A stretch of 64,000 nt of DNA, taken from contig NZ_MEHJ01000001.1 in assembly GCF_001746415.1 (NCBI RefSeq), positions 3,989,001 to 4,053,000 of the forward strand. The letters run 5' to 3'. This stretch comes from Streptomyces agglomeratus (lineage in GTDB: Bacteria > Actinomycetota > Actinomycetes > Streptomycetales > Streptomycetaceae). Position numbers and translations under genes: made by a program. The notes below the pieces were generated by a model. The model saw only the letters and a list, made by a program, of their open reading frames with translations, was not told the origin of the DNA and made no database searches. Shown one piece after another: positions 41,462 through 48,285 of this stretch (position 1 is the stretch's first letter; each line of letters opens with the position of its first letter).

Positions 41462-42046
41462 TCATCCGTACGTATCCCCGGGGCCCGTACTCCCCGGAGC
41501 CCGCAGCGCGCCGAAACGGCGCGGCGGACCACCCGGCCCCCAGATCTTGATCATCCGCACCGTGTCCCGGCCCAGATCGGCGTTCAGCCGCGTCAGCAGC
41601 TCCCGCTGCATCAGCCGCAGCTGCGTCGCCCACGCCGTCGAATCGCACTGCACCGTGAGAACCCGCTCGTCCTCGTCGTAACGCTGCGGCACACAGTGCT
41701 TCGCCAGATCCCCGCCCACGATCTCCGGCCACCGGCCCATCACACCGCCGACCGCCATCGGCATCTCCCAGCCGCGCTCCGTCTTCAACCGGTCCAGCGC
41801 GGCCCCCAGCGCCAGCGGGTCACGACCGTCCGCCCCCGAACCCGACCGCAGCCCTCCACCACGCCTGGCCTGCTTCTTCTGCTGCGCCGCCGCACCCCGC
41901 GCCCGCGCCTGCTCCTTCGCCGCACGCAACGCCACCCGCGCCAGATCCACACCCGACGACTCCGGCGCCCTCGACGGCTCGGGCACCCTCGGCTGCTCCT
42001 GCGGCAGCTCCCCGCTCAATCCACCCGGACCACTGAGCCCGCTCAT
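41462..42046 (-). CDS. dciA: DUF721 protein, DciA-like replicative helicase factor
   Basis: 194 aa. A disordered, basic N-terminal half ([16 protein letters not shown]) precedes the DUF721 domain (about 80-180): [49 protein letters not shown]. In bacteria without DnaC/DnaI, DciA interacts with DnaB and is needed for helicase loading, and the recF-gyrB location is the known one in actinobacteria. ATG overlaps the recF stop as ATGA. Confidence 0.88.
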
Positions 42047-43173
42047 ACCCGCGCCACCTCGCCGCCGGACACCATGTACCGCGCCCCCGCCAGCACGCCC
42101 GGCACATCGTCATCCACCGCGGCCGTCACCAGCACCTGCTCACCCGGCGCCACCAACTCCGCCAACCGCTCCCGCCGGCGCGCGTCCAGCTCGGCGAAGA
42201 CGTCATCGAGCACGAGCACCGGCTCATTGCCCTCGCCGCGCAGCAGATCGTACGAAGCAAGCCGCAGCGACAACGCGTACGACCACGACTCGCCATGGCT
42301 GGCATAGCCCTTCGCCGGCAGCTGCCCCAGCTTCAGCACAAGATCGTCCCGGTGCGGACCGACCAGCGTCACACCCCGCTCGATCTCCTGCTTCCGCGCC
42401 TGTGCCAACGCCGCCAACAGCAGCTCGTACAACTCCTCACGCGTCTGATCAGCGGTTACGCCGCCGCCAACCGAACTCCGGTACTCCAGCAGCACCGGGC
42501 CCCCGCCCGGCGCCAGCTGCTCGTACGCCTTGTCCGTCATCGGCTGCAAGGTCGCGATCAGGTCCAGCCGCTGCGCCAGCAGCTCCGCACCCACCTGCGC
42601 CAGATGCTGGTCCCACACGTCCAGCGTCGACATGTCCATCGACCGGCCACCGTGCCGACGCGCCATCGCCGCCGACTTCAACAGCGTGTTCCGCTGCTTC
42701 AGCACCCGCTCGTAGTCCGACCGCACCCCCGCCATCCGCGGCGACCGCGCCGTAATCAGCTCGTCGAGGAACCGGCGCCGCTCACCCGGATCGCCCTTCA
42801 CCAGCGCCAGGTCCTCCGGCGCGAACAGCACCGTCCGTACGATCCCCAGCACATCACGTGGCTTGACCTGCGACGACCGGTTGATACGCGCCCGGTTCGC
42901 CCGGCCCGGATTCAGCTCCAGCTCCACCAGTTGCTGCCGCTCGCCCTGCGTCACCGCGGCCCGGATCACCGCCCGCTCCGCGCCCATCCGCACCAGCGGA
43001 GCGTCCGAGGCGACACGGTGGCTGCCGAGGGTCGCCAGGTAGCCGACCGCCTCGACGAGATTCGTCTTGCCCTGCCCGTTCGCCCCCACGAACACGGAAA
43101 CGCCCGGATCGAGAGGGACCTCGACCCGGGCGTACGAGCGGAAGTCGGCCAGCGACAGATGCGTGACGTGCAT
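42043..43173 (-). CDS. recF: DNA replication/repair protein RecF
   Basis: 376-aa SMC-like ATPase acting in gap repair and RecA loading. Walker A GANGQGKT (about 30-37), signature region [17 protein letters not shown], and Walker [17 protein letters not shown] 43173 begins [14 protein letters not shown], the standard N terminus; the upstream in-frame extension is not conserved. Follows gnd by about 35 bases. Confidence 0.96.
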
Positions 43174-43207
43174 GGCGTGCGCCGACCTTCTCCCAGCTCT
43201 GAACTGC

Positions 43208-44086
43208 TTACTTCTTCGACTCGACCGCGTGACCACCGAACTGGTTGCGCAGCGCGGCGATCATCTTCATCTGCGGGGAGTCGTCCTGACGCGACGCGAA
43301 ACGCGCGAACAGCGACGCCGTGATCGCGGGCAGCGGCACCGCGTTGTCGATCGCCGCCTCGACCGTCCAGCGGCCCTCACCCGAGTCGGCGGCGTACCCG
43401 CGCAGACTCTCCAGGTGCTCGTCGTCGTCCAGCGCGTTGACCGCCAGGTCCAGCAGCCAGGAACGGATGACCGTGCCCTCCTGCCAGGACCGGAAGACCT
43501 CACGCACGTCCGTGACGGAGTCGACCTTCTCCAGCAGCTCCCAGCCCTCGGCGTACGCCTGCATCATGGCGTACTCGATGCCGTTGTGAACCATCTTCGC
43601 GAAGTGCCCGGCACCGACCTTGCCCGCGTGCACCGAACCGAAGTCACCCGCCGGCTTCAGCGCGTCGAAGACCGGCTGGACCTTCGCCACGTTCTCGGCG
43701 TCGCCCCCGTACATCAGCGCGTAGCCGTTCTCCAGACCCCACACACCACCGGAGACGCCGCAGTCGACGAAGCCGATGCCCTTGAGGCCCAGCTCCACCG
43801 CGTGCTTCTCGTCGTCCGTCCAGCGGGAATTCCCGCCGTCCACGACCACGTCGCCCGGCTCCAGCAGCTCGGCCAGCTCGTCGATCGTGGACTGGGTCGC
43901 GGCACCGGCCGGAACCATCACCCACACCACCCGCGGGCCCTTGAGCTTGGCCACGAGCTCCTCGAGGCTGTGGACATCGGCGACGTCCGGGTTGCGGTCG
44001 TAACCGATGACGGTGTGGCCTGCGCGGCGAATGCGCTCGCGCATGTTGCCGCCCATTTTGCCGAGGCCGACGAGACCGAGCTCCAT
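43208..44086 (-). CDS. gnd: 6-phosphogluconate dehydrogenase, short form
   Basis: 292 aa, the short decarboxylating type, much shorter than the ~470-aa E. coli enzyme. Rossmann motif [12 protein letters not shown], substrate region [22 protein letters not shown], and [18 protein letters not shown] with the catalytic Lys/Asn. It makes ribulose 5-phosphate and reduced NAD(P). Its place between dnaN and recF is typical of actinobacteria. AAGGAATC precedes the ATG. Confidence 0.96.
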
Positions 44087-44174: not shown

Positions 44175-45305
44175 TCAGCCCGAGAGCCGCACCGGCATGA
44201 TCAGGTACTTGTACGCCTCGTCCGCCTCGGCATCCACCGCGGGCCTGCCGCTGAGCAGCGCCGGCTTCGTGGACGTCGTGAAGGACAGCTGGGCGACCGG
44301 GGAGTCGATCGCGCTCAGGCCGTCCAACAGGAAGGTCGGGTTGAAGGCGATCGAGATGTCGTCGCCCTCCAGGTTCGCGTCGACCCGCTCCACAGCCTGT
44401 GCGTCGTCGCTCGAACCCGCTTCGAGGATCAGTACGCCCTGCTCGAAGCTGAGGCGCACCGGAGTGTTCCGCTCGGCGACCAGCGCCACACGCTTGACGG
44501 CCTCGACGAACGGCGCGGTCTCGATGACGGCGATCGAGTTGAACTCGGTCGGGAAGAGCGTCCGGTACTTCGGCAGGTCGCCTTCCAGCAGCCGCGTGGT
44601 CGTACGCCGGCCGGCACCCTCGAAACCGATCAGCCCCTCACCGGCGCCCGAGCTGGACAGCGCGATGGTGACCGTGTCACCGCTGGTCAGCGACTTGGCG
44701 GTGTCCAGCAGAGTCTTGGCGGGCACCAGCGCGACGGCCGAGGCCTCGGGGTCCTCGGGCTTCCACATGAACTCGCGGACCGCGAAGCGGTAGCGGTCGG
44801 TGGAGGCCAGCGTCACTCGCTCGCCCTCGATCTCGATGCGGACACCGGTCAGCACGGGCAGCGTGTCGTCACGGCCGGCGGCGATGGCCACCTGGGCGGC
44901 GGCGGAGGCGAAGACCTCACCGGGGACGGTGCCCGTCGCGGTCGGCATCTGCGGCAGCGCCGGGTACTCCTCCACAGGAAGGGTGTGGAGTGTGAACCGG
45001 GAGGAGCCGCAGACCACGGTCGCCCGTACACCGTCTGTGGAGATCTCCACCGGCCGGTTCGGCAGGGCGCGGCAGATGTCGGCGAGGAGCCGGCCGGAGA
45101 CGAGAACGGTGCCGTCCTCCTCCACGTCCGCCTCGACCGAGACGCGGGCCGAGACCTCGTAGTCGAAGCCGGAGAGGCTCAGCGCGCCCTCCTCGGCCTT
45201 CAGAAGAAGGCCCGCGAGAACGGGGACCGGCGGACGGGCCGGAAGGCTGCGAGCCGTCCAGGCCACCGCCTCCGCGAGTACATCGCGCTCAACCCGGATC
45301 TTCAC
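44175..45305 (-). CDS. dnaN: DNA polymerase III sliding clamp
   Basis: 376-aa beta clamp of three repeated domains; KIRVERDVLAEAVAWTARSL start, GSSRFTLHTLPVEEYPALP, LTGVRIEIEGERVTLASTDRYR, and the C-terminal YLIMPVRL. Encircles DNA to tether polymerase. GTG 45305 with AGGAGGCGG upstream. Directly downstream of oriC. Confidence 0.98.
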   Translation of the reverse strand: MKIRVERDVLAEAVAWTARSLPARPPVPVLAGLLLKAEEGALSLSGFDYEVSARVSVEADVEEDGTVLVSGRLLADICRALPNRPVEISTDGVRATVVCGSSRFTLHTLPVEEYPALPQMPTATGTVPGEVFASAAAQVAIAAGRDDTLPVLTGVRIEIEGERVTLASTDRYRFAVREFMWKPEDPEASAVALVPAKTLLDTAKSLTSGDTVTIALSSSGAGEGLIGFEGAGRRTTTRLLEGDLPKYRTLFPTEFNSIAVIETAPFVEAVKRVALVAERNTPVRLSFEQGVLILEAGSSDDAQAVERVDANLEGDDISIAFNPTFLLDGLSAIDSPVAQLSFTTSTKPALLSGRPAVDAEADEAYKYLIMPVRLSG

Positions 45306-45399
45306 CGGAACCGCCTCCTGCTTGTTGCTGGCTCGCCCTGCTGGCCGTCGTGGTCTGGGGTCGTCTGGCTGTGTTGCCGGGGACCAGTCTGACGCACGG

Positions 45400-45416
45400 C
45401 ACCGACAGTCGGTGCG
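45400..45416. promoter_or_regulatory. 17-bp palindrome upstream of dnaN
   Basis: GCACCGACAGTCGGTGC, two perfect 8-base arms around one A, about 95 bases before the dnaN start. Could be an operator or a mRNA hairpin. No protein is known to me for this motif. Confidence 0.4.
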
Positions 45417-45513
45417 GCTCGGGGTCAAGTCGTGGCGAGAGGCGTCGCCGGCTCCGGGGCCGAGTTGTGCACAGGGCCCTCTTCCAAGCGATTTCCGGGC
45501 TAACTCTTAGTGG

Positions 45514-45547
45514 GAGTAGTAGTAGGGCCTGTGGAAACGGTGGATAA
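45514..45547 (+). other. Putative DnaA-trio unwinding element of oriC
   Basis: GAGTAGTAGTAG (45514-45525) is followed by a GC-rich GGCC and two abutting boxes, TGTGGAAAC (45530-45538) and GGTGGATAA (45539-45547). This layout, box pair, GC patch, then TAG triplets, is that of the bacterial basal unwinding system described in Bacillus subtilis, where DnaA moves from boxes onto the trio strand. The adjoining TAACTCTTAG (45501-45510) is AT-richer. Confidence 0.65.
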
Positions 45548-46097
45548 CCCCGTTTGCGCAGGTCAGCCCCACTTTTTTGTCCACCGCGCCTGTGGGCGGA
45601 GCCGGTGGACAACTCGGTGTTTCTGTGGACGCGCGAAAGTTACACACACGGGGTGCACAGGCAGGGGTGACTTCTCCCCAGCGCTGTCCCCAGCTTTACC
45701 CATGTTCCCCACAGCCCAACCAGCCTCCTTGGTGTGACCGCTTTCACTCGGGCCGGTGAGGGCGCGTGTTTCGTTGCCGAACAGTGGACAGAGGTGTGGA
45801 TTAGCTGTGCACAAGACGGCCCAGCCTGTGGGCCGCCGGTGGACAACCAAGATCCGCCCCTGTGGACAAAATTTCCGTCCACAGCCTGTGGATGAAGGTT
45901 GACCACAAATCCACAACCACCTGACCTGGGGTGATGAAGTCTCAGGAACCGCACCTGTGGACCCAGTCTGGACAACTTCGCGGTCCCCAGGGTGTGGACG
46001 GAACATCCTGCCCTGTTCTGTGGAGAACAGGGCCCCGCGGGCACGTATTCGAACACCGCGAAGACACCTCGAGGACACCGCGCAGGCGCGGAACGGC

Positions 46098-46134
46098 GAA
46101 GGGCGCCCGGGAAGTACGTCCCTGGGCGCCCTTC
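46098..46134. terminator. Terminator of dnaA
   Basis: GAAGGGCGCCC (46098-46108) pairs with GGGCGCCCTTC (46124-46134), with an inner GGGA/TCCC. It lies 44 bases past the dnaA stop and separates dnaA transcription from oriC. Confidence 0.8.
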
Positions 46135-46177
46135 GGAGCGTGATGTGGAGCCTGCCTGAAGCCGCTCCCGTGCCGTG

Positions 46178-47917
46178 TCAGCCGTTCTTGATGCGGTTCG
46201 TGAGCTCGGTGACCTGGTTGTAGATGGAGCGGCGCTCCGCCATCAGGGCACGGATCTTGCGGTCGGCGTGCATCACGGTCGTATGGTCGCGGCCGCCGAA
46301 CTGAGCGCCGATCTTCGGCAGCGAGAGGTCCGTGAGCTCGCGGCACAGGTACATCGCGATCTGCCGGGCCGTCACGAGCACGCGACTGCGGGACGACCCG
46401 CAGAGGTCCTCCACCGTCAGCCCGAAGTAGTCCGCCGTCGCCGCCATGATGGCGCTCGCCGTGATCTCGGGAGACGCGTCCTCACCGCCGGGGATCAGGT
46501 CCTTGAGCACGATCTCGGTGAGGCCCAGATCGACCGGCTGCCGGTTGAGCGACGCGAACGCCGTCACCCGGATCAGCGCGCCCTCCAGCTCGCGGATGTT
46601 GCGCGAGATGCGGGACGCGATGAACTCCAGTACCTCCGGAGGGGCGTTGAGCTGCTCCTGGACCGCCTTCTTGCGGAGGATCGCGATACGCGTCTCCAGC
46701 TCCGGCGGCTGCACGTCGGTGGTCAGACCCCACTCGAACCGGTTGCGCAGCCGGTCCTCCAGGGTCACCAGCTGCTTGGGCGGGCGGTCCGAGGACAGCA
46801 CGATCTGCTTGTTGGCGTTGTGGAGCGTATTGAAGGTGTGGAAGAACTCCTCCTGCGTCGACTCCTTGCTCGCCAGGAACTGGATGTCGTCGACGAGCAG
46901 GATGTCCACATCGCGGTAGCGCTTGCGGAACGCGTCGCCCTTGCCGTCGCGGATGGAGTTGATGAACTCGTTCGTGAACTCCTCGGAGCTCACATAGCGC
47001 ACGCGCGTGCCGGGGTAGAGGCTCCGCGCGTAGTGCCCGATCGCGTGCAGCAGGTGCGTCTTGCCGAGCCCCGACTCCCCGTAGATGAAGAGCGGGTTGT
47101 ACGCCTTCGCCGGCGCCTCGGCGACCGCTACGGCGGCCGCGTGCGCGAAGCGGTTGGACGAGCCGATCACGAAGGTGTCGAAGAGGTACTTCGGGTTCAG
47201 GCGCGCGTGCGGCTCGCCGGGGCCCGGGGCCGGGGCCTGCGCGGCCAGGGGGCCGGGGGCGCCACCGCCGCCGGACTGCATGGAGGAGCCGGGGCCGCCG
47301 CGGTGCGGGGCCTGCTGGTCCTGGTGGTCGCGGCGCTCGGGCCGCTCGTGACGCGGCGGCTGGTCGTAGTGGGGCTGCTCGTACTGCTGGTGTTCGGGTG
47401 CCTGCTGCCGGTAGTCGTGCTGCTGCGGGCGGGTGGCGTACGGGTCGCGCTCCTGGAATCCGCCGAGGCGGGGCTGCTGCCAGCCGTGGTTCTCCTGCTG
47501 GCGGGACCAGGAGCCCTGGTCGTGGCGGGGCTGGCGGTAGTCCGGGTACGCCGGCCTGGCGGTCGGAAGGTCGTCGGCCTGCGGGCGGTGCCCGTACGTG
47601 TCGTACGACTCGTGCTGGGGCTGCTGCTGCGGGGCCGGCTCGGCAGCCGAGTCGTCGACGGTGATCGCGATCCGGATCGGCCGGCCGCACTCGCGGCTCA
47701 GCGTTTCGCTGATGAGCGGCGCGAGGCGGCCTTCGAGCACCCTCTTGCCCCACTCGTTGGGGACGGCGAGCAGCGCCGTGTCGGCGACCAGGGCGAGCGG
47801 CTGGCAGCGCTCGATCCACTGTTTGTCCTTGGGCTCGATGCCCTGCTGGCCCTCTCCGAGGAGGTGCTCCAGCACGCGTGGCCACACTGCGGCAAGATCG
47901 GCAGGTACGTCAGCCAC
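46178..47917 (-). CDS. dnaA: Chromosomal replication initiator DnaA
   Basis: 579 aa, longer than the E. coli protein (467) because domain II (about residues 95-240) is an extended Gln/His/Pro-rich linker, as usual in Streptomyces. Domain III has Walker [10 protein letters not shown], Walker [11 protein letters not shown] and sensor motifs; domain IV has the DnaA signature [11 protein letters not shown]. Binds DnaA boxes in oriC and melts the origin. GTG 47917. Likely autoregulated by the box at its promoter. Confidence 0.98.
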
Positions 47918-48285
47918 AGGGCACGCGCTCTCTCACAGGTCCCACGAAGGTGTGGTTCTTGGGACGGGATGGGAAGGACAGGCAAGGACACAACGGATAA
48001 GAATCCAAGTTCATGCACGGTAGTCGCGGGTCCTTGCGTGCATCAAGTTGTTGTCCACAGCCTGTGCACAGTGGACCCTGGTGCCCGGTCGGTTTGACCG
48101 GATGGCGTAGCCGCGCGTACCGTGACCAGGTCGAGTTGTCGATGGCTGCTGCCGCCTGCCTCCGATGGGCAAAGATCACGGTCTGTGATCGTGAAGCGGT
48201 GCACACGGGCGTTGCGAGCTTCCTCGTGGGCGCACGGTGACAGCCAGGCGATGCCCCGCCACCACACCACTTCTGGAGCCCCCGA
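47918..48285. other. dnaA-rpmH divergent intergenic region
   Basis: Holds the divergent promoters. For dnaA (minus strand) TTGATG (48046-48041), an 18-base spacer and TACCGT (48022-48017) make a plausible promoter. A perfect DnaA box TTGTCCACA lies at 48051-48059 and TGTGCACAG at 48063-48071. On the rpmH side GATCACGGTCTGTGATC (48174-48190) is an inverted repeat of unknown role. Confidence 0.6.
48017..48059 (-). promoter_or_regulatory. dnaA promoter with adjacent DnaA box
   Basis: -35 TTGATG (48046-48041), -10 TACCGT (48022-48017), spacer 18. The perfect box 48051-48059 ends five bases from the -35, a position where bound DnaA would repress its own promoter. Autoregulation of dnaA by such boxes is known in Streptomyces lividans. 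Confidence 0.6.

Follow-up and report, generated by a model that had tools for sequence, protein, structure and literature searches.

A probable DnaA-trio basal unwinding system at the dnaN end of the Streptomyces replication origin and its apparent variant form in the class Actinomycetes

The box-spacer-trio module at positions 45514-45547 of the stretch of Streptomyces agglomeratus DNA analyzed here (64,000 nucleotides, termed the window) is probably the basal unwinding system (BUS) of the Streptomyces origin, in which DnaA would open the duplex on the DnaA-trios toward dnaN. As anatomy, this reading is well supported by the layout of the module, its conservation, its low duplex stability by nearest-neighbour energy, and the trio-reading residues that are kept in DnaA. 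The corresponding module of the class Actinomycetes appears, from sequence comparison, to be a variant of the BUS, with 3'-G(A/C)T-5' trios and often a facing DnaA box approximately 42-58 nt past trio 3.

The BUS was reportedly described for Bacillus subtilis by Richardson in 2016. The accounts of this system used for comparison are Richardson 2019 (PMC6669920), Pelliciari 2021 (PMC8287927) and Pelliciari 2023 (PMC10721633). A BUS has been predicted in 1755 of 2070 oriCs (PMC8287927), probably including those of Streptomyces, and a DnaA-trio is annotated in another actinobacterial oriC, that of Kocuria rhizophila, where it likewise lies between dnaA and dnaN; the relevant part of that account (PMC12500396) is a single-genome annotation without comparison or rule. 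The remark in the initial annotation that attention in Streptomyces oriC has mostly been on the boxes is therefore partly out of date. A BUS at Streptomyces oriC by itself is a known type of element, because of these predictions and this annotation, and it is the middle-C alphabet of the trios and the facing box that make the actinomycete form a variant.

Results

Organization of the module

The features of the origin region are summarized in Table 1. The positions and minus-strand orientation of dnaA and of the dnaN start place the box-trio site at the dnaN end of oriC, with 220 bp from the first trio base to dnaN. Between dnaN and the gene at 42043-43236 lies, on the minus strand (43208-44086), what we take to be a 6-phosphogluconate-dehydrogenase-like gene.

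Table 1. Coordinates of the origin features in the window
Feature	Position	Strand	Remarks
dnaA	46178..47917	-	
oriC (dnaA-dnaN intergenic region)	45306..46177	-	
Distal DnaA box TTATCCACC, module anchor	45539..45547	-	conservation of 0.99-1.00 at the first two bases and at the T-C-C core (90 Streptomyces oriCs)
Proximal DnaA box GTTTCCACA, abuts distal box	45530..45538	-	TCCACA in 90/90 Streptomyces oriCs
GC spacer GGCC, proximal box to first trio	45526..45529	-	length 4 in 90/90 Streptomyces oriCs
Three DnaA-trios 3'-GAT-GAT-GAT-5' (5'-TAGTAGTAG)	45517..45525	+	strand that DnaA would hold
In-register continuation, triplets 4-6	45508..45516	+	3'-GAG-5' fits; 3'-GGT-5' (middle G) misfits; 3'-GAT-5' fits
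Weakest 30-bp duplex of oriC	45501..45530		nearest-neighbour energy
Inverted DnaA box TTGTGCACA, faces trios, 43 nt beyond trio 3	45465..45473	+	third most conserved 12-bp window
dnaN	44175..45305	-	start at 45305

The + strand of 45514-45547 reads GAGTAGTAGTAGGGCCTGTGGAAACGGTGGATAA, and the strand running from dnaA to dnaN consists of TTATCCACC, GTTTCCACA, GGCC, CTACTACTA and CTC in direct succession. The letters, order and coordinates given in the initial annotation are right: two abutting DnaA boxes are followed by GGCC and three 3'-GAT-5' trios, in the same order as in the Bacillus BUS, as it had claimed. The boxes TTATCCACC and GTTTCCACA contain one and two mismatches to the nearer DnaA-box consensus, respectively. 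When it is followed from 3' to 5', starting at the boxes, the + strand runs GAT GAT GAT GAG GGT GAT, and TAACTCTTAG is located at 45501-45510.

The first step of the published BUS rule was applied to oriC in an implementation of our own, with a box of at most two mismatches, a spacer of 0-16 nt and at least three middle-A triplets. The 45514-45547 site is the only passing site that carries any 3'-GAT-5' trio; one further place passes, with zero 3'-GAT-5' trios. At the 45514-45547 site the boxes are co-oriented, the better of them has no more than two mismatches, and three 3'-GAT-5' trios are followed by 3'-GAG-5'. The spacer to the trios is within range, being 13 nt from the better box and 4 nt from the proximal box; the commonest published BUS spacer is 13 nt, and up to 16 nt from the first located box is allowed. 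CTACTACTA occurs once in the 64-kb window, versus 0.01 occurrences expected from shuffled sequences. The whole genome contains 7 copies of CTACTACTACT and 11 of the reversed control. A rarity of the bare TAG repeat in itself is therefore ruled out, and it is only in association with the boxes that the repeat stands out.

Conservation in Streptomyces

The 872-bp oriC is matched in 121 of 121 Streptomyces genomes, its own included. Ninety of these oriCs, including that of the window, were compared base by base, and the remaining 31 genomes, except one (G043), were covered by the pattern alone. A single copy of the pattern consisting of both boxes, the 4-nt spacer and the three trios is present in each of 390 out of 392 Streptomyces genomes, again with the window's own included; the reversed control pattern is present in none of the 392. 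Each of the two misses has one pattern-breaking box base with the trios intact, so that, by pattern plus inspection of these two, the trios are kept in 392 of 392 genomes. CTACTACTA is kept, with its distance to the boxes unchanged, in 90/90 oriCs read and in 79/80 named Streptomyces loci, a set that overlaps the unnamed one; the exception is L320 (Streptomyces sp. PR69), in which the third triplet is CCA. The initial annotation had proposed that conservation of the triplets and of their distance to the boxes be followed across Streptomyces and that lack of conservation would speak against its reading. Both are conserved at the frequencies given above, and the reading withstands this comparison.

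The middle base of triplet 4 is A or C in 78 of the 90 oriCs and 59 of the 80 named loci, and that of triplet 5 in only 8 and 3 of them, respectively. A middle G is the rule in triplet 5 of Streptomyces, so that the good array amounts to three or four trios. In the alignment of the 90 oriCs over 760 bp, 45527-45516 is the most conserved stretch of 12 bp. A conserved AGAG-TAGC stretch follows the TAG block in Streptomyces. Three other 12-bp blocks (45788-45777, 45744-45733 and 45432-45421), one of them with a TTGAC core, almost match the trios in conservation among these 90 oriCs.

Duplex stability of oriC

The GC content over 45501-45525 is 40%. When nearest-neighbour energies are used, the weakest 20-, 30- and 50-bp windows of this oriC all include the trios. 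When an 800-bp stretch of each of the 90 Streptomyces oriCs is scanned, the stability minimum falls on the trio site in 70 oriCs for windows of 20 bp and in 71 for windows of 30 bp. For windows of 50 bp, the minimum falls within the same strict range of start positions in 12 of the 90 oriCs, and in 78 it begins no more than 50 bp from trio 1. A long AT-rich stretch is ruled out as a hallmark of the site, because the GC content of the 43-nt span is 58%, versus 64% for oriC.

A simplified supercoiling model, which allows a single open run and uses AT/GC energies only, ranks the sites differently. In this model, 45860-45936 on the dnaA side ranks above the trios at each of the four densities used, and so do sites beyond dnaA, 47965-48055 at three densities and 47982-48023 at the fourth. 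The nearest-neighbour and supercoiling estimates of the weakest site disagree, and both are estimates, not measurements. The supercoiling ranking favours an alternative explanation, in which the half of oriC on the dnaA side melts first, at 45860-45936 or nearby, and the trios at the dnaN end are secondary and serve, for example, in later single-strand holding or helicase loading. The Plachetka study of 2019 concerns the same Streptomyces origin region and the same question; its abstract reportedly locates a pair of unwinding elements in the direction of the 5' end of oriC, both of which opened in vitro. By its title, this study (Plachetka et al. 2019) deals with two putative unwinding elements in Streptomyces oriC, and it may place melting at the oriC end opposite the trios. 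The initial annotation had also listed melting at another site as a result that would count against its reading, and the Plachetka study may supply such a result.

The position of AdpA boxes bears on which end is meant, because these boxes are stated to lie in the 5' part of oriC in S. coelicolor and S. griseus (PMC8653842, PMC3411110). Only six perfect AdpA boxes are found in the 90 oriCs, five of them on the dnaA side, and the scan was therefore repeated allowing one mismatch. By raw counts over 170 oriCs, 301 of 450 such sites are located at 321-640 bp from the trios toward dnaA, and a second group of 81 sites is located at 81-160 bp. The 5' end thus looks like the dnaA side, opposite the trios, and the AdpA boxes agree in this respect with a start of melting there. 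Three observations are against it: the trios are ranked first by nearest-neighbour energy, both here at all three window sizes and in most Streptomyces at 20 bp; no trio-bearing BUS is found near 45860-45936; and this region sits inside the box cluster, a place in which, according to a 2015 review (PMC4285127), unwinding elements are never found. A start of melting on the dnaA side is therefore considered rather unlikely. Opening at the trio site and opening at the 5' end may be compatible, if superhelical opening and capture by DnaA differ in place. A literature search for a DUE2 in Streptomyces found none.

Trio code in other Actinomycetes

Outside Streptomyces, loci were anchored by an abutting DnaA-box pair upstream of dnaN alone, and the sequence that follows was not used. 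This box-only anchor replaces a general BUS scanner with hand-set weights, which was dropped for counting because its weights had a built-in bias toward a middle G on the box strand. In the discovery set, 73 of 98 non-Streptomyces Actinomycetota have the abutting pair; three loci with short flanks (L101, L110 and L111) are excluded from the 98. For three others with short flanks (L373, L397 and L400) the dnaN start was assumed, and none of them is anchored. After the anchored pairs come a 4-nt spacer and then five 3-nt repeats of C[T/G]A, which correspond to 3'-G(A/C)T-5' trios. The C[T/G]A rule was fixed in writing before hold-out set 1, which consists of 60 fresh genomes, was analyzed. The trio counts leave out the unanchored loci (25/98, 10/60 and 11/30 in the discovery set and hold-out sets 1 and 2; 23/138 for the class) and retain some anchors, above all in other classes, that resemble chance matches.

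Outside Streptomyces, the class Actinomycetes is represented by 138 loci, of which 115 are anchored. Of the 575 triplets at these anchored sites, 487 have A or C in the middle; for the class members of the discovery set alone, the count is 235 of 290. Among the class members of hold-out set 1, 38 of 40 loci are anchored and 171 of 190 middle bases are A or C, the middles other than A being 77 C, 16 G and 3 T. C[TG]A is found at 95 of these 190 triplets in register, versus 2 and 1 out of register. This set is narrow, with 40 loci from 8 families and 18 of them from one family, and the count is 90 of 105 when its largest family is removed. In hold-out set 2 (30 class genomes from 18 families, 7 of them previously unseen), 19 loci are anchored and 81 of 95 middle bases are A or C. 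Both hold-out sets overlap the discovery set in families and in some genera; in the previously unseen families of hold-out set 2, five of nine loci are anchored, with a middle A or C at 24 of 25 triplets and a facing box at three of the five loci. Behind 280 other DnaA boxes, which serve as background, the frequency of a middle A or C is 0.448 and C[TG]A is found at 33 of 1400 triplets; the 96 anchored sites compared with this background give 0.846 and 222 of 480. When one genome per family is counted, 152 of 185 middle bases in 37 families are A or C. Of 43 families, 37 show a box pair with a trio-like register. These results suggest that the two-letter middle position is a property of the class.

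The rule does not extend to the whole phylum. In the hold-out loci of the other classes, 12 of 20 are anchored and 28 of 60 middle bases are A or C, which is the background level and goes with poor anchoring; for all other-class loci the values are 27/50 and 83/135. A trio rule for the phylum is therefore rejected.

Middle C is widespread within the class. With each family counted once, the 160 middle bases of 32 families are distributed as A 58.7, C 69.1, G 27.1 and T 5.1, and a strict middle-C trio occurs at least once in 25 of these families. At this site and in this register, three middle-A trios in a row are present at 28 of 115 Actinomycete loci, versus 83 of 115 if C is allowed. The number of middle-C trios is not correlated with the local GC content (rho 0.11, p 0.30). 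B. subtilis DnaA opens middle-C trios approximately as well as middle-A trios, and those with G or T less well, through contact of the base amine with N187 (PMC10721633). The natural A/C middles fit this amine rule, as judged from the sequences. The genome scan of PMC8287927 demanded a middle A in every trio. A search of the literature on DnaA-trio and cytosine, subscription papers excepted, found no report of natural middle-C trios.

The TAG block might instead be kept for dnaN transcription or for a DNA-binding protein other than DnaA. Its position 176-773 bp (median 221) before dnaN in the 80 named loci and the conserved AGAG-TAGC stretch behind it speak for such a function. This alternative is nevertheless improbable, because the trios are locked to the boxes and not to dnaN, with a box pair and trio-like register in most families, and because neither a sigma-70-like promoter in 45250-45700, in a search that covers Streptomyces sigma factors loosely, nor an Rfam match in 45200-46300 is detected. 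That the resemblance to a BUS results from chance plus shared ancestry is very improbable: related genomes are not independent and CTACTACTACT is no commoner than its reversal genome-wide, but CTACTACTA is invariant while neighbouring columns vary, off-register columns are not equally conserved, and the rule survives both the one-per-family counts and the five anchored loci from previously unseen families.

Facing DnaA box

An inverted, DnaA-box-like TGTG begins precisely at +43 from trio 3 in all 171 Streptomyces loci compared (two overlapping sets), and the strict form TGTG[CG]ACAA is found in 83/91 and 78/80 loci of these sets. In other members of the class, inverted boxes cluster at +42 to +44 and at +50 to +58, two positions separated by approximately one helical turn; forward boxes show no such clustering. 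An inverted box is present at these offsets in 77 of 115 non-Streptomyces loci, versus 2 of 115 for forward boxes and 2 of 115 for control offsets. In the discovery set, hold-out set 1 and hold-out set 2, the inverted box is found in 36/58, 32/38 and 9/19 loci, with 0, 1 and 1 forward boxes and 1, 1 and 0 boxes at control offsets, respectively. The pattern was seen first in Streptomyces, and the offsets were then read off the discovery set and hold-out set 1 jointly. Hold-out set 2 is therefore the only set that is fresh for the facing box, and its count of 9/19 lies just below the threshold of half that was set beforehand. When one locus per family is counted, the facing box is present in approximately 21 of 37 families, versus 0.5 for the forward box. 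In the other classes it is present in 4 of 27 loci. Opening at the trios, if real, would be an exception to the rule of PMC4285127, because the facing box puts the site between DnaA boxes.

DnaA residues

The DnaA of the window aligns over 236-577 with its B. subtilis counterpart in 8btg, a cryo-EM entry of the BUS. Ten residues of the B. subtilis protein are named in PMC10721633 and PMC8287927 for trio contact, fork contact or oligomer formation. Nine of them (E183, N187, I190, I193, R202, K222, E223, E228 and R264) are identical, and the tenth, N196, is replaced by G. Of two further positions, 184 is changed and 197 is kept. E183, N187, I190 and R264 are kept in the DnaA of 27 of 27 other Actinomycetes. 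The equivalent of R202, which contacts the first trio base in B. subtilis, is kept as R in 10 of these 27 proteins (L262-L288) and replaced by Q in 14 and by K in 3; N187 is fixed in them.

Discussion

Comparison with known origins

The Streptomyces module resembles the B. subtilis BUS, which is formed by DnaA-boxes 6 and 7 and the trios, in its two co-oriented boxes, in the 3'-GAT-5' trios on the expected strand, and in its location between dnaA and dnaN. The 4-nt GC spacer is GGCC in both organisms (PMC8235120), and the DnaA contact residues are shared. The two systems differ in that B. subtilis has six trios, whereas Streptomyces has three strict trios and a poor fifth one, without a long AT-rich stretch. 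They also differ in that a facing DnaA box is located 43 nt beyond the trios in Streptomyces and in that a middle C is common in other Actinomycetes. In B. subtilis, DnaD acts opposite the trios, and a protein of the DnaD/DnaB type is needed there; the corresponding family PF07261 is absent from the genome of the window and 20 relatives, and is found in B. subtilis and L. lactis among 14 controls.

The oriC2 of Clostridioides difficile (PMC7561715) has the CTACTACTA repeat beside its boxes as well, downstream of dnaA. P1 nuclease has been used to place DnaA-dependent unwinding there. C. difficile differs from Streptomyces in its longer trio run, its AT-rich genome and its bipartite origin. In the oriC2 of Helicobacter pylori (PMC8235120), a trio module likewise lies next to a GC motif, between this motif and an AT-rich stretch, and mutations in the trios prevent opening. 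The consensus of this module is given in complementary form with a fixed middle T, and the relevant part of the account describes no middle-C trios.

Proposed mechanism

By analogy with B. subtilis, DnaA would dock on the tandem boxes at 45530-45547, and ATP-DnaA would extend past GGCC onto the + strand and take the trios from 45525 to 45517 successively. Capture of the first two bases of each trio would then open the helix toward dnaN. The facing box may bound the resulting bubble or hold a second set of DnaA molecules for the other strand.

A bracketed form of the BUS can be proposed tentatively for the Actinomycetes. In this form, DnaA from the tandem boxes would read 3'-G(A/C)T-5' trios through the amine of the middle base, and the facing box, at approximately +43 or +53 and thus in helical phase, would close the bubble and direct DnaA or a second helicase to the opposite strand, a role that is played by DnaD in Bacillus. 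If this is true, replication would start in both directions from one small module, with its unwinding site between DnaA boxes. The facing box is a concrete candidate for the handling of the other strand in bacteria that lack a DnaD/DnaB-type protein, as judged from the 21 genomes searched. The natural middle C would give evolutionary support to the amine reading, which was found in Bacillus by base substitution. The module also provides an exact and testable place of origin opening for antibiotic producers that form a large group and whose origins are GC-rich. Between the trios and the facing box, 45480-45500 contains a near-palindrome around TTCGAA, which is largely conserved in Streptomyces and imperfect in the window.
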